This document shows, piece after piece, positions 57,585 to 63,432 of a DNA stretch of 64,000 nucleotides. Origin of the DNA: Roseovarius aestuariivivens. GTDB taxonomy: Bacteria; Pseudomonadota; Alphaproteobacteria; Rhodobacterales; Rhodobacteraceae. Location of the stretch: assembly GCF_004761875.1 (NCBI RefSeq), contig NZ_SJEY01000003.1, forward strand, positions 248,001-312,000, given 5' to 3'. The notes beneath the pieces are model-generated. The model saw only the letters and a program-made list of their open reading frames with translations. It did no database searches and was not told where the DNA came from. Both the position numbers and the translations under genes were made by a program. Position 1 is the stretch's first letter; each line of letters begins with the position of its first letter.

Positions 57585-59564
57585 ATGGCCCAGATCTCCC
57601 TGACCTTTCCCGATGGCAACGCACGCGACTATGCGGCGGGAATCACCCCCGCCGAGGTCGCCGCTGACATTTCCAATTCCCTGGCGAAAAAGGCCATCTC
57701 GGCCCATATCGACGGCCAGCATTGGGACCTTCAGTGGCCCATCGAGCGCGACGCGAAAATCGCCATCAACACGATGAAAGAAGAAGACGCCGCAAACGAA
57801 CTGGTGCGTCACGACCTCGCCCATATCATGGCCCGCGCCGTGCAGGAAATCTGGCCCGACACCAAGGTCACCATCGGCCCGGTCGTCCAGAACGGCTGGT
57901 ACTACGATTTCGACCGGGCCGAGCCCTTCACGCCCGAGGACCTTGGCGCCATTGAAAAGAAGATGCGCGAGATCATCAATCTGCGCGACCCCGTCCGCAC
58001 CGAGGTCTGGGACCGCGACCGCGCAATCCAGCACTACAAAGACAATGACGAGCCCTACAAGGTCGAACTCATTGACGCCATTCCAGGCGATGAGCCGCTG
58101 CGCATGTATTGGCACGGCGACTGGCAGGACCTCTGCCGTGGCCCGCACCTTCAGCACACCGGCCAGGTCCCGGCGGATGCGTTCAAGCTCATGTCCATCG
58201 CCGGCGCCTATTGGCGCGGCGACAGCAGCCGCCAGATGCTGCAGCGGATCTATGGCGTCGCCTTCACCGGCAAAGAAAAGCTGAAGGCCTATCTCAACTT
58301 TCTTGAGGAGGCCGAGAAGCGCGACCACCGCAAGCTCGGCCGCGAGATGAACCTTTTCCACATGCAGGAAGAGGCCCCCGGCCAGGTCTTCTGGCACCCC
58401 AACGGCTGGACGATCTACACCACCCTGCAGGATTACATGCGCCGCAAGCAACGCGCGGGCGGCTATAACGAGATCAACACCCCCCAGGTCGTCGACCGCA
58501 AACTGTGGGAAAAATCCGGCCATTGGGACAAGTACCAGCACCACATGTTCCTGGTGGAGGTAGACGAGTCCCGCGACGGCGAGGATGACGACGCCACCGT
58601 CAAGAACAAGGAGCAGACACGCATCAACGCGCTGAAGCCCATGAACTGTCCCTGCCACGTCCAGGTCTTCAACCAGGGCCTCAAATCCTACCGCGACCTG
58701 CCCCTGCGGCTGGCCGAATTCGGCTCTTGCGCGCGGTTCGAACCGTCGGGCGCGCTGCACGGCATCATGCGCGTGCGCGGCTTCACGCAGGATGATGCGC
58801 ATATTTTTTGCACCGAAGAGCAGATTCAGGACGAATGCGCCCGCTTCATCGACTTCACCGCGAATGTCTATCGCGAGCTTGGGTTCGACAATTTCGAGAT
58901 CAAGTTTGCCACCCGCCCTGAAAAGCGCGTTGGCACCGATGAAAGCTGGGACTATGTCGAGGGCGCGCTGGAAAACGCGATCAAGGCTGTGGGCCGCGAC
59001 TACACGCTGGAACCGGGCGATGGCGCCTTTTACGGGCCGAAGCTCGACTTTTACCTCACCGACGCCATCGGCCGGGTTTGGCAATGCGGCACGTTTCAGG
59101 TCGATCCCAACCTGCCCGAACGGCTCGATGCCACCTATATCGCCGCCGACGGCGCCAAGCATCGCCCCTATATGCTCCACCGCGCCTGCCTTGGCTCATT
59201 TGAACGCTTCATCGGCATTCTGATCGAGAACTGGGAAGGCAAGCTGTCCTTCTGGCTCGCCCCCCGCCAGGTCGTCGTCGCCTCCATCGTGTCCGAGGCG
59301 GATGCGTATGTGCATGAAGTCGTCAAAACGCTGCAGTCCGCCGGCGTCCGGGCCGAGGCCGATATCCGCAACGAGAAGATCAACTACAAGGTCCGCGAAC
59401 ACTCCGTCGGCAAGGTGCCGGTCATTCTCGCCTGCGGTCTGCGCGAGGTCGAGGAAAAGACCGTGTCCGTCCGGCGTCTGGGGGAAAAGCAGACCAAGGT
59501 CGAAACGCTCGCCGATGTAACAGTTGCGCTTGCCAAGGACGCAACGCCCCCGGATTTGTTGTAA
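57585..59564 (+). CDS. thrS: ThrS, threonyl-tRNA synthetase
   Basis: 659 residues. The TGS domain is at 1-60 ([16 protein letters not shown]), then the editing domain, the class II catalytic core with [10 protein letters not shown] (zinc Cys), [20 protein letters not shown], and a C-terminal anticodon domain. The start at 57585 has GAGGAAG upstream and gives the usual [11 protein letters not shown]. The stop codon overlaps the first TTGTAACA repeat of the next operon's leader. Confidence 0.96.
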
Positions 59565-59610
59565 CATTTTGTACAAACCGGGCCGTCAGGCTTGTAACAA
59601 TTTGTACAAG
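59559..59610 (+). repeat. Tandem 33-bp repeat TTGTAACA(T/A)TTTGTACAA in the bufferin leader
   Basis: Two copies start at 59559 and 59592, 33 bp apart; the first begins in the thrS stop. Each has a dyad-like core TTGTA...TACAA. The rest of the unit is also similar (CCGTCAGGC and GGCGGCAGGC). It lies 200-250 bp before the precursor start and is a candidate operator or sRNA-related element. Confidence 0.6.
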
Positions 59611-59728
59611 ACTGGCGGCAGGCTGGCGATTTTCCGTTTATTAAGAATGCGTTACCCCCTGCGTACAGGCGCGCGGGGGGTTGACGTGCGCGTGTCTGAC
59701 GCACTCGTGAGTACGCTTTGGGCGCGAC

Positions 59729-59752
59729 CGGCGATAGCGTTGGGTATCGCCG
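59729..59752. promoter_or_regulatory. Inverted repeat CGGCGATA-8-TATCGCCG before the bufferin operon
   Basis: Perfect 8-bp arms around an 8-bp centre, 59 bp upstream of the precursor's TTG. No T-tract follows, so a metal-responsive or other dimeric regulator site is more likely than a terminator. A possible -35 TTGACG lies at 59681-59686. Confidence 0.5.
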
Positions 59753-59810
59753 CCCGGACCAACCGGGTACGGCGTCTTATTGCAAAACCTCAAGAGGGAG
59801 GAGTAAACCC

Positions 59811-60104
59811 TTGTCTAACCTTGTGAAAACCGCCGCAATTGCCTCGGCCGTCACGGCCGCGCTCGCCGCGCACACCACCACGGCTGCTCAGGCCGCCGAG
59901 AAAGAAAAATGCTACGGCATCTCGCTTGCAGGGGAAAACGACTGCGCCGCCGGCGCCGGCACCACCTGCGCCGGCACCTCCACGGTCGACTACCAGGGCA
60001 ACGCTTGGACCCTCGTCGACAAGGGCACCTGCACCGAAATCGACCTGCCCGGCGACCGCACCGGTAGCCTGGAACCGCTGGACCGCGACCTGCCGCAGGC
60101 GTGA
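59811..60104 (+). CDS. bufA: BufA1-type bufferin precursor (DUF2282), TTG start
   Basis: 97 residues from the TTG at 59811, with a very strong GGGAGGAG 7 bp upstream; longer frames have no support. A signal peptide ends near AQA-A (about residue 29). The short core has four cysteines (Cys34, 45, 53 and 74) in [22 protein letters not shown] and KGTC, the DUF2282/bufferin pattern. In known bufferins Cys residues are oxidised to thiooxazoles that bind copper. The enzyme gene follows 60 bp later. Confidence 0.9.
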
Positions 60105-60164
60105 CGAACTGGCGGGGCGCGCGCCGTTACCCCGCGCCCCGCAACCAAGACGAAAGGTGCCGCC

Positions 60165-61019
60165 ATGCCTCAGAACGCTCTGCCGAACGGTCCCGGCGTC
60201 GGCTACAAGCCACAGCATTTTCCCGATCTGACGACAGACCCGGATCCCGTTCAATGGCTTGAAATACATGCGGAAAATTACATGGGCGATGGCGGCAGAC
60301 CGCTGGCGCAACTGCGCCATCTGGCCGAGCGTTTTCCGATGTCCGTGCATGGCGTAGGCCTGAGTATCGGCGGCGAAGGTCCGCTTGACCCCAACCACCT
60401 TGCCCGCCTCAAGACGCTCTGTGACTGGCTGCAACCCGCAAGCTTTTCCGAGCATCTTGCCTGGTCGACGCATGACAGCGCGTTTCTCAACGACCTCCTG
60501 CCGCTGCCCTACACAACCGAGACGCTCCGCCGTGTGGCCGAACATATCGACGAGGTCCAAACCACACTTGGCCGTCACATGCTGCTGGAAAATCCGTCCA
60601 GCTACCTCGCTTTCGCCGAAAGCACATGGTCAGAGCCCGATTTCCTTGCGGAACTGGCCCAACGGACCGGCTGTGGTTTGCTGCTCGACGTGAACAACGT
60701 GTTCGTCTCCGCAACCAATCTGGCCATAGATGCGCACATGTATATCGACACGTTTCCCATTGATAAGGTTGAGGAATTTCATCTTGGTGGTCACGACGAA
60801 GATGAGGATGACCACGGCGCGCCGCTTTTGATCGATAGCCATGGGCGCGAGGTCGCGGATCCGGTCTGGTCGCTTTTGGAGTATACCCTTGCCCGGTCCG
60901 GTGCGCGTCCACTGCTGATCGAATGGGATACCGATGTGCCCGATTGGGCCACCCTCGCCGCCGAAGCCGCGCGGGCCGAAACGGCCCTCGCCCGCCACAG
61001 ACAGGGCGTCGCGGCATGA
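60165..61019 (+). CDS. bufB: BufB, DUF692/MNIO bufferin-modifying enzyme
   Basis: 284 residues of the multinuclear non-haem iron oxidase family (DUF692). Metal-ligand motifs are in order: HAEN at 35-38, VHGVG with His62, SEHLAW with Glu96/His97, LENPSSY with Glu142, LLLDVNNV with Asp175, and HLGGH with His206/His210, followed by DSHG. The enzyme should modify Cys in the BufA precursor. It overlaps the next gene by 4 bp (ATGA). Confidence 0.95.
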   Translation: MPQNALPNGPGVGYKPQHFPDLTTDPDPVQWLEIHAENYMGDGGRPLAQLRHLAERFPMSVHGVGLSIGGEGPLDPNHLARLKTLCDWLQPASFSEHLAWSTHDSAFLNDLLPLPYTTETLRRVAEHIDEVQTTLGRHMLLENPSSYLAFAESTWSEPDFLAELAQRTGCGLLLDVNNVFVSATNLAIDAHMYIDTFPIDKVEEFHLGGHDEDEDDHGAPLLIDSHGREVADPVWSLLEYTLARSGARPLLIEWDTDVPDWATLAAEAARAETALARHRQGVAA

Positions 61020-61768
61020 GCGTGCGGCAGGATAGCTTCCGCGCCGCCGTGCTCGATCCTCTCGCCGCCGTGCCCGAGGGCTTGAAAGACGGGCAAGGCC
61101 GTCCCGCGGGGCGCCGCTTCTCGGTCTACCGCAACAATGTCGTCGCAGGTCTGATCACCGCGATTGAAACCTCGTTCCCGGCCACGGCCAAGCTTCTTGG
61201 GCCCGAGGAATTCCTTTCCGTCGCAAGCCTTTACGTGCGAAAGTTCCCACCGGATACGCCGATGATGATGTATTACGGCGCGTCCTTTCCGGCCTTCCTG
61301 CAGCAACAGATGCGGCTAGATCACCTACCGCAAGTCGCCGATCTCGCCCGGTTGGAACAGACCCGGCGCGAAGCCTATCACGCCTCTGACGCCGCGCCGG
61401 CCGACCCCGGAGAGCTGGCCGGCTTGGCACCGGAAGCCCTTGCCAACATGCGGTTCGATCTCGCCCCGGCGCTCCGCCTATTGCGTTCGGATTGGCCGGT
61501 GCACGCGATCTGGGCCTTTCACATGACCGATGACGCGCCACCGCCCGGACAAGAGGCGCAGAACGTGCTCATCACGCGCCCCGCCTTCGACCCTGAAATG
61601 GCAGTCATCGACACACCGACCTGCGCCTTTCTCAGCGCGTTGCAGAGCGGGGCAACACTTGCCGAGGCAGAGAGTGCCGCAGACGCGCCGTTCGACCTGA
61701 CCGCCGCGCTTGGTCTTTTGCTCCAAGGCCAGGCGATACACCAGATCATTCCAGGAGATATCCTTTGA
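61016..61768 (+). CDS. bufC: BufC, DUF2063 partner of the MNIO enzyme
   Basis: 250 residues from the ATG at 61016. The DUF2063/HvfC-like region is in RRFSVYRNNVVAGLITAIETSFPATAKLLG (read in two parts, about 28-58) and in LARLEQTRREAYHASDAAP. The RiPP-recognition partner delivers the leader to the MNIO enzyme. It overlaps bufB at the start and bufD at the end. Confidence 0.92.
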   Translation: MSVRQDSFRAAVLDPLAAVPEGLKDGQGRPAGRRFSVYRNNVVAGLITAIETSFPATAKLLGPEEFLSVASLYVRKFPPDTPMMMYYGASFPAFLQQQMRLDHLPQVADLARLEQTRREAYHASDAAPADPGELAGLAPEALANMRFDLAPALRLLRSDWPVHAIWAFHMTDDAPPPGQEAQNVLITRPAFDPEMAVIDTPTCAFLSALQSGATLAEAESAADAPFDLTAALGLLLQGQAIHQIIPGDIL

Positions 61769-62316
61769 ACTCCCTGATTTCACGATACAAATCGATTTCC
61801 ACCGCGCTGGACCGAGCGGACTGGCTCCTGCCCACTCTGGCCCGGTTTCTCTTTGCCGCGATCCTGCTTCATTACTTCTGGGCGTCCGGCCTGACCAAGC
61901 TGGGCGACGGCATCTCGGGCCTGTGGCAGCCGTCTGTCGGGGCTTATGCACAGATCTTTCCCAAGACGATGGAAGCGGTCGTCTACGATACCAGCCAGCT
62001 TGGGGTCTACCATTGGGCCGTTGTCACCTTTGGCACCTGGGCAGAGTTCATTCTGCCGCTGCTCATCGTCGTCGGAATGGCCTGCCGGCTGGCCGCGCTT
62101 GGCATGATCGGGTTTGTCGCAGTGCAGTCGCTCACCGATCTGTTCGGTCATAACGGAATAGAACAAGGCACGCTTGGTGCATGGTTCGACAAGGCGCCGG
62201 ACGGGATCATCCTCGATCAGCGGGCCCTGTGGGTCTTCCTGCTTCTGGTACTCGTGATTAAGGGCGCGGGGCCGCTCTCCCTTGACCGGGCTTTCGGCGG
62301 TCGTGTGGCCGCCTAA
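61765..62316 (+). CDS. bufD: BufD, DoxX-family membrane protein, TTG start
   Basis: 183 residues with four membrane spans; FLFAAILLHYFWASGLTKLG is typical of the DoxX/DUF2282-linked group. The TTG at 61765 overlaps the bufC stop and has CAGGAG 8 bp upstream. Its role in bufferin systems is unproven; quinone- or redox-linked function is suggested by the DoxX fold. Confidence 0.88.
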   Translation: MNSLISRYKSISTALDRADWLLPTLARFLFAAILLHYFWASGLTKLGDGISGLWQPSVGAYAQIFPKTMEAVVYDTSQLGVYHWAVVTFGTWAEFILPLLIVVGMACRLAALGMIGFVAVQSLTDLFGHNGIEQGTLGAWFDKAPDGIILDQRALWVFLLLVLVIKGAGPLSLDRAFGGRVAA

Positions 62317-62627
62317 CGCATCAAGTCCGCCTGAACGTCCTTGCCCCATCCCAGGAAGAACCGCGTACCATCGGTGATCAGCGGGCGCTTCATCAGGGTG
62401 GGGTGCTCGGCAAGAAGCGTCAGCGGATCGGCTGCCCGCGCGTCGTGCGAAAGGCCCCGCCATGTGGTCGAGCGCCGATTGACAAGCTCATCACCCAAAG
62501 CGGCATAGGCGGATTTCAGCACGTCGGGTGGAATACCATCCGACCGGATGTCCCGAAACTCCACCTTATCGAGGGATTTCAGCGCCTTGCGGCAGGTATC
62601 GCAGGTTTTCAGACCATAGAGGGTCAT
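62313..62627 (-). CDS. ArsC/Spx-family protein (YffB type)
   Basis: 104 residues of the thioredoxin-fold ArsC family: YGLKTCDTCRKALK with a CxxC pair at the N-terminus, HPTLMKRPLI and GWG near the end. The family includes glutathione-dependent arsenate reductases and Spx regulators; members of this size without other ars genes are mostly of unknown function. It is convergent with bufD and overlaps its stop by 4 bp. Confidence 0.85.
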   Translation of the reverse strand: MTLYGLKTCDTCRKALKSLDKVEFRDIRSDGIPPDVLKSAYAALGDELVNRRSTTWRGLSHDARAADPLTLLAEHPTLMKRPLITDGTRFFLGWGKDVQADLMR

Positions 62628-62822: not shown

Positions 62823-63029
62823 ATGCCAACCGGCACCGTGAAATGGTTCAATACCACCAAAGGTTATGGGTTCATCGCCCCCGATGAGGGCGGCAAGGAC
62901 GTGTTTGTCCATATTAGCCAGGTCGAAAGGTCAGGTCTCACCGGCCTCGCCGACAACCAGAAGGTCGGCTACGACCTGCAAGAGGGCCGCGACGGTCGAC
63001 AGATGGCGGCGGATCTCAAACTGCTCTGA
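62823..63029 (+). CDS. CspA-family cold-shock protein
   Basis: 68 residues forming a single OB-fold. The RNA-binding motifs are intact: KGYGFI at 13-18 and VFVHIS at 27-32. The ATG at 62823 has GAAGGAGAAG upstream. The leader at 62690-62745 has two TTTTTGCAAG copies and a CTTGC/GCAAG hairpin, so a structured, temperature-sensitive 5' UTR is possible. Confidence 0.93.
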   Translation: MPTGTVKWFNTTKGYGFIAPDEGGKDVFVHISQVERSGLTGLADNQKVGYDLQEGRDGRQMAADLKLL

Positions 63030-63098: not shown

Positions 63099-63383
63099 TC
63101 AGTAACAGCCCTTTTCACCCTCGCGGCACGTCCCGACACTGCGCGCGCGGGACGAGTGGTAATGCCGCTTTTTCGGCAGTGGATGCGCTTTCACCTGCTG
63201 GTACGTCATGCTTTGGTTCGGCGTCCCACAACAGATGACCCCGGAAATCGTGACCGGCTGCAATCCTTGCGGACAGTAATTGTGCTTGGAGGGATAGGCA
63301 TAAACCTTTGGCCCTTCAGCCATGGCCGGCCCGCCGAGAACGGCCACAGTCAACGCGGCGGCGATGTATGAGGTGATGCGCAT
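63099..63383 (-). CDS. Small Cys-rich secreted hypothetical protein
   Basis: 94 residues from the ATG at 63383 (GAGGATCAT upstream). A signal peptide ends near AMA-E (about residue 22). The mature part has five cysteines (NYCPQG, VICCG, TCRE and GCY at the C-terminus) and many Lys/His/Arg. No family is recognised. A TTGACA/TACCAT promoter precedes it. Confidence 0.65.
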   Translation of the reverse strand: MRITSYIAAALTVAVLGGPAMAEGPKVYAYPSKHNYCPQGLQPVTISGVICCGTPNQSMTYQQVKAHPLPKKRHYHSSRARSVGTCREGEKGCY

Positions 63384-63432
63384 ATGATCCTCGCAAAAAA
63401 AGTAAATACAGCCCAAAATCGTTGTGCACGTT

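Follow-up and report, generated by a model that had tools for sequence, protein, structure and literature searches.

What switches on a bufferin operon that has no sigma factor gene beside it? It has been proposed that bufferins are a response to copper stress widespread among bacteria. The control described for them is an ECF sigma/anti-sigma pair; in the part of PMC3511200 available to us, the buf operon of Caulobacter depends on SigF, which is restrained by NrsF. The window, by which we mean the whole stretch of 64,000 nucleotides of Roseovarius aestuariivivens DNA analysed here, carries such an operon at a locus where a tblastn search gives no ECF sigma gene within 2 kb. The best explanation of the locus as a whole, and one that we consider likely, is a Buf1 operon behind an activator-driven promoter, with two TTG start codons private to this genome.

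Judged from its sequence, the segment 59811-62316 is almost certainly a complete Buf1 (DUF2282) bufferin operon in the order bufA-bufB-bufC-bufD (Table 1). The bufA product matches PF10048 (DUF2282) with 85.8 bits against a cut-off of 22.4, and BufB matches the MNIO model of Pfam (346 bits, cut-off 25), the MNIO_BufB model of NCBIfam (374.4, above the cut-off of 310) and PDB entry 3bww (E = 2e-48). BufC and BufD match PF09836 (DUF2063; 77.3 bits, cut-off 27.2; family searches with the query 61019-61768, from codon 2 on) and PF07681 (DoxX; 27.3 bits, cut-off 23.6), respectively. ORF coordinates and Pfam thus agree with the four genes and the order given in an earlier note on this DNA, and the overlap or coupling that it claimed for the last three genes is present as ATGA between bufB and bufC and as TTGA between bufC and bufD. 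The N-terminus of BufA is Sec-like, judged by eye, and DUF2282 has a single match in the R. aestuariivivens genome. Buf2 bufferins share with the Buf1 of the window the MNIO-modified, Sec-exported kind, but have 6 or 12 cysteines in the excerpts of PMC12452194 consulted, whereas BufA has four; we reject a Buf2 identity on this cysteine count and on a BufA2 score of 21.3 against the NCBIfam cut-off of 60. Against the three buf products other than BufB, the NCBIfam models BufA2, HvfC and HvfX all remain under cut-off.

Table 1. Features of the buf locus, in window coordinates
Feature	Position	Strand	Description
Double-palindrome element (proposed operator)	59682-59712	+	TGACG-N4-CGTGT-CT-GACG-N4-CGTGAGT; matrix match
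-10-like TAGCGT	59735-59740	+	24 nt past the 29-base core of the element
Predicted transcription start, A of conserved aTCGC	59746	+	from column conservation alone
Shine-Dalgarno AGGGAGGAG of bufA	59795-59803	+	from sequence; 7 nt 5' of TTG
bufA, DUF2282 (Buf1) precursor	59811-60104	+	TTG start, 97 aa, Cys34/45/53/74; PF10048
bufB, MNIO bufferin maturase	60165-61019	+	284 aa; Pfam, NCBIfam, PDB 3bww
bufC, DUF2063 partner protein	61016-61768	+	ATG start, 250 aa; PF09836
Shine-Dalgarno AGGAG of bufD	61753-61757	+	from sequence; 7 nt 5' of TTG
bufD, DoxX-like membrane protein	61765-62316	+	TTG start, 183 aa; PF07681

The residues expected to carry the chemistry are conserved throughout the sample. 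The four cysteines singled out in the earlier note have the spacing (11, 8, 21) seen in 127 of 127 unique bufA loci, L125, which has no bufA match, being excluded. BufB residues H97, E142, D175, N178, H206, D224, H226 and E253 have a conservation of 1.00 (127-128 rows), and the iron ligands of the MNIO are presumably among these acidic and histidine positions. All eight align with 3bww, 8hci and MbnB (7dz9), and H62 aligns with 3bww and 8hci; going by this alignment, the acidic and histidine positions common to solved MNIOs appear to be kept, in line with the enzyme assignment made earlier. In the excerpts of PMC12452194, Buf1 is a DUF2282 protein with four conserved cysteines, of which the central two become thiooxazoles and the outer two a disulphide, and the Buf1 core consists of genes for precursor, MNIO, DUF2063 and DoxX; the thiooxazole structure is argued for in the part of PMC12668002 consulted. 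As far as the excerpts of PMC12452194 and PMC3511200 describe it, Caulobacter CC3254-CC3257 has the same four-Cys DUF2282 precursor, MNIO, DUF2063 and DoxX in the same order as the window. The EGKCG-type captophorins fontiphorin, oxazolin and gonophorin are alike in that an MNIO and a DUF2063-type partner produce thiooxazoles and in their association with copper, but in the captophorin precursors Cys motifs such as EGKCG recur, in contrast to the DUF2282 domain and four cysteines of BufA (both from the same part of PMC12668002). By analogy with these characterised relatives, BufB and BufC would oxidise the central Cys45 and Cys53 of BufA to thiooxazoles, Cys34 and Cys74 would form a disulphide, and the mature peptide, exported by Sec, may bind excess copper in the periplasm.

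The operon as such is ordinary, common in the family and of an already known type. The earlier note's emphasis on a marine copy shifts in this respect: of 198 family genomes (Rhodobacteraceae) sampled, 140 carry DUF2282, which makes the operon common and not rare. Among the matches listed, all four buf genes are matched in 79 of 80 named relatives, the remaining one being L055 (on a 3.1-kb contig), which is without bufD; the 80 listed are Rhodobacteraceae-type organisms, and judging by these relatives the bufferin lineage is presumably marine in character. Several loci of the genus are identical over 400 nt of bufB to named Roseovarius loci, which makes Roseovarius the probable genus. Of 138 loci, 117 have thrS upstream in the same orientation at up to 1.5 kb, with a median gap of 237 nt, and a thrS match is missing in 17. 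Two genomes have paired DUF2282 matches a short distance apart, a tandem precursor arrangement (G007 and G100; L108).

The TTG starts claimed for bufA (59811) and bufD (61765) behind excellent ribosome-binding sites are both real sequence features, each with its Shine-Dalgarno sequence at 7 nt, and both are private to R. aestuariivivens. The alternative bufA start, an in-frame GTG at 59823, is four codons in, 19 nt from the Shine-Dalgarno sequence and weaker; at this codon a second Met is present in many relatives. Choosing the bufA start by Shine-Dalgarno match gives 108 ATG and two TTG in 110 loci, the two being the window and L044, where an ATG is also present at the aligned MSN codon. If an ATG in range is preferred, 137 of 138 readable loci start with ATG and one, the window, with TTG (12 of the loci counted are duplicates; L023, truncated, and L125 are outside the 138), so that within the sample the bufA TTG is unique to R. 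aestuariivivens. For bufD, the start nearest the bufC stop in 88 unique loci is ATG in 80, TTG in six, the window among them, and unfound in two; three of the other five TTG codons (L014, L016, L140) have ATG as the next codon, and those of L025 and L040 have no clear start assignment. One might read the pair of TTG starts as deliberate translational control of the operon, given a good Shine-Dalgarno sequence before both and the translational coupling of bufD by TTGA, but these counts of ATG at both genes, and the ATG codons that follow three of the bufD TTGs, make this reading highly improbable. Being private to one genome, the TTG starts are therefore no family-wide control feature.

Upstream of bufA, an alignment of upstream regions of the genus, together with counts of words in 126 unique regions, identifies a double palindrome with the consensus TnACG-N4-CGTGA-N2-CACG-N4-CGTGAAT. 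A matrix search finds this element in 109 of the 126 unique bufA upstream regions and in 0 of 126 shuffles, and a matrix trained on 79 named loci finds it in 34 of 47 held-out regions, including that of the window, and in 0 of 940 shuffles; when nine ECF-type loci and three with neither element nor ECF gene are taken out, the held-out figure is 34 of 35. In 85 of the 109 operator loci a TAnnnT box is located 24 or 25 nt past the 29-base core, and a conserved aTCGC lies 3' of this box, as ATCGCC in the window. The window element, with a score of 25.4, is under most loci and is without the extra TnAC half-site present in most of them ~10 nt upstream. A consensus scan upstream of bufA found neither a canonical sigma-70 promoter nor a good -35 hexamer. 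The earlier note called the control of the operon undescribed, and on this point we agree as regards the literature covered, in which neither the element nor any non-ECF control of bufferins was encountered (excerpts of papers including PMC12538549, PMC8315932 and PMC8273931, some of the queries being too broad); the element itself did not figure in that note. A specialist will find little surprise in the operon or its TTG starts, and it is this control element, not described in the literature covered, that is the novel part of the locus and raises an ordinary operon to moderate interest.

The element is highly specific for bufA. In 120 family genomes, allowing at most one mismatch, there are 54 distinct places against five control matches, and 47 of the 54 are at bufA, 153-230 nt 5' of the DUF2282 core; of the remaining seven, one is between bufA and bufB, one near an L,D-transpeptidase gene and five in or beside unrelated genes. 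With the genus form in 83 genus genomes, 29 of 29 places with at most one mismatch lie upstream of bufB on the same strand, as do six of ten with two mismatches; at three mismatches the genus search is noisy. One of the four two-mismatch places away from bufB, L200, is probably a bufA site, since it falls at a contig end with thrS, and the other three have no gene in common. Within the R. aestuariivivens genome there is one exact match, that of bufA, which is the sole match under three mismatches, and there are eight with three mismatches against three for the control. As the pattern was derived from bufA loci, these numbers establish specificity and not the completeness of a regulon. Two of the places merit a separate description: in L186 (2720-2748, genome G063) the double palindrome stands between bufA and bufB and not before bufA, and in L152 (1501-1529, genome G112) the match, possibly by chance, is ~70 nt 5' of the L,D-transpeptidase gene, and no DUF2282 match is present in that genome.

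The element and a neighbouring ECF gene are mutually exclusive. Of 126 loci, 109 have the element only, 13 have only an ECF gene within 2 kb, none has both and four have neither, with a Fisher value of 1.4e-14 that is too strong because the loci share ancestry. A quick BufB tree has weak support (of its 123 inner branches, 46 are open); on it, the operator/ECF label requires three changes without the four "neither" loci and seven with them. The ECF gene of the 13 ECF-only loci is divergent, and NrsF is found in the examined stretch of 12 of them; Pfam confirms the ECF protein of L009 and the NrsF of L011 (182.9 bits). These ECF16-type sigma/NrsF loci (e.g., L009, L011, L093) have the same operon downstream as the window, but 11 of the 13 carry one CAC-N6-GTG palindrome 5-9 nt before GTAAY (0 in 500 shuffle rounds), whereas the window type has two palindromes, TAnnnT and no adjacent ECF gene. 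Across the class, a search of 289 genomes for palindrome plus GTAAC gives 13 matches, a reversed-pattern control giving 14, and none of these 13 loci matches the buf, ECF, NrsF or thrS queries; at chance outside the family, the box is therefore not shown beyond it.

An ECF sigma factor encoded elsewhere could nevertheless drive the operon, with the palindromes as an accessory site, and the palindrome that adjoins GTAAY in the ECF-linked loci would fit such a factor. So would a loose GTAAC[CA]-N15-18-CGA[AT] pattern, which occurs, at scattered positions, in 12 of 110 upstream regions against a shuffle mean of 0.44. The window, however, has no match to this pattern upstream of bufA, so we rejected a Caulobacter-type promoter for it, and the conserved downstream box of operator loci is TAnnnT and not CGAA. 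The R. aestuariivivens genome (99.77% complete) gives 0 matches in a search for NrsF, with a Caulobacter control genome positive. Overall, a distant ECF factor appears unlikely. The window differs in the same respects from Caulobacter, where SigF acts at GTAACC-N16-CGAA together with NrsF (PMC3511200, in part) in place of a double palindrome and TAnnnT box without NrsF.

The position of the element, which ends where a -35 hexamer would begin, and the failure of the scan to find a canonical sigma-70 promoter together favour an activator. A putative activator encoded elsewhere in the genome would bind the double palindrome, at the -35 region of the bufA promoter or immediately 5' of it, and switch the operon on, the signal being perhaps copper or another metal; we give this reading of the element slightly better than an even chance. 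A repressor would suit the pattern nearly as well. Repressors commonly use tandem palindromes upstream of a promoter, and one regulon member per genome suits a dedicated TetR- or ArsR-like repressor that would keep the operon off without metal. On the other hand, 24-25 nt separate the end of the element from the -10-like box, so that the start is left uncovered, the lack of a good -35 hexamer suits an activator better, and the most shared neighbours include no adjacent regulator gene; we view a repressor operator as possible but rather doubtful. No regulator was found among the conserved neighbours examined near bufA, which comprise thrS, an arsC-like gene and other genes, or at the other operator copies.

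The element might instead function as RNA, since each palindrome can form a short hairpin and the two would make tandem tetraloop hairpins in the leader. Watson-Crick pairs are in excess at positions 20-25 (78 against 69.9 expected) and at the inner 22-23 (62 against 45.8), but not comparably at 5-10 (66 against 65.6), 6-9 (30 against 37.8) or 21-24 (25 against 23.7). An excess equal to that of a partner pair is also seen at 5-25 (77 against 69.4), whose positions are not partners; moreover, the -10-like box is downstream of the element. As the arm positions mostly vary independently and the excess at 20-25 is matched by a non-partner pair, we reject an RNA element as very improbable and, on balance, regard the double palindrome as a protein site on DNA.

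Control by the putative activator would replace control of the SigF/NrsF type, which is known in Caulobacter and which some members of the family show next to the operon. In its most specific form the proposal is a regulon of one, in which an unlinked, metal-responsive activator that recognises two TCACG-N4-CGTGA palindromes and has essentially one target per genome replaced SigF/NrsF in most of these Rhodobacteraceae; we judge the chances of this form to be evenly balanced. The likely point of departure for such a replacement would be the one palindrome that sister loci carry next to their SigF-type box. In a family that is large and includes many marine members, the peptide appears to have been kept while the switch changed, and the element could serve as bait for a new, possibly copper-sensing, regulator and as a ready reporter of such stress in roseobacters.

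Several other features surround the operon. At the thrS end, two near-identical TTGTAACA-TTTTGTACAA repeats lie 33 nt apart (59559-59583 and 59592-59616), the first of which contains the thrS stop codon in a conserved TGTAACA context; as a control element the repeats were set aside as private, with TTGTACAA in 1 of 110 upstream regions, that of the window. In 11 of 81 loci, an ArsR-like cluster lies upstream at a distance of ~3.7 kb. Downstream of the operon, Pfam identifies an ArsC-family protein (62313-62627, minus strand) and a cold-shock protein (62823-63029, plus strand), with similar ORFs in 70 and 66 of 80 named loci, respectively. The ORF at 63099-63416 (minus strand) encodes a small, secreted-looking, Cys-rich protein (NYCPxGLQP...GVICCGTPNQ) that has no match in Pfam or NCBIfam, and ORFs like it are found near the buf operon in 16 of the 80 named loci.
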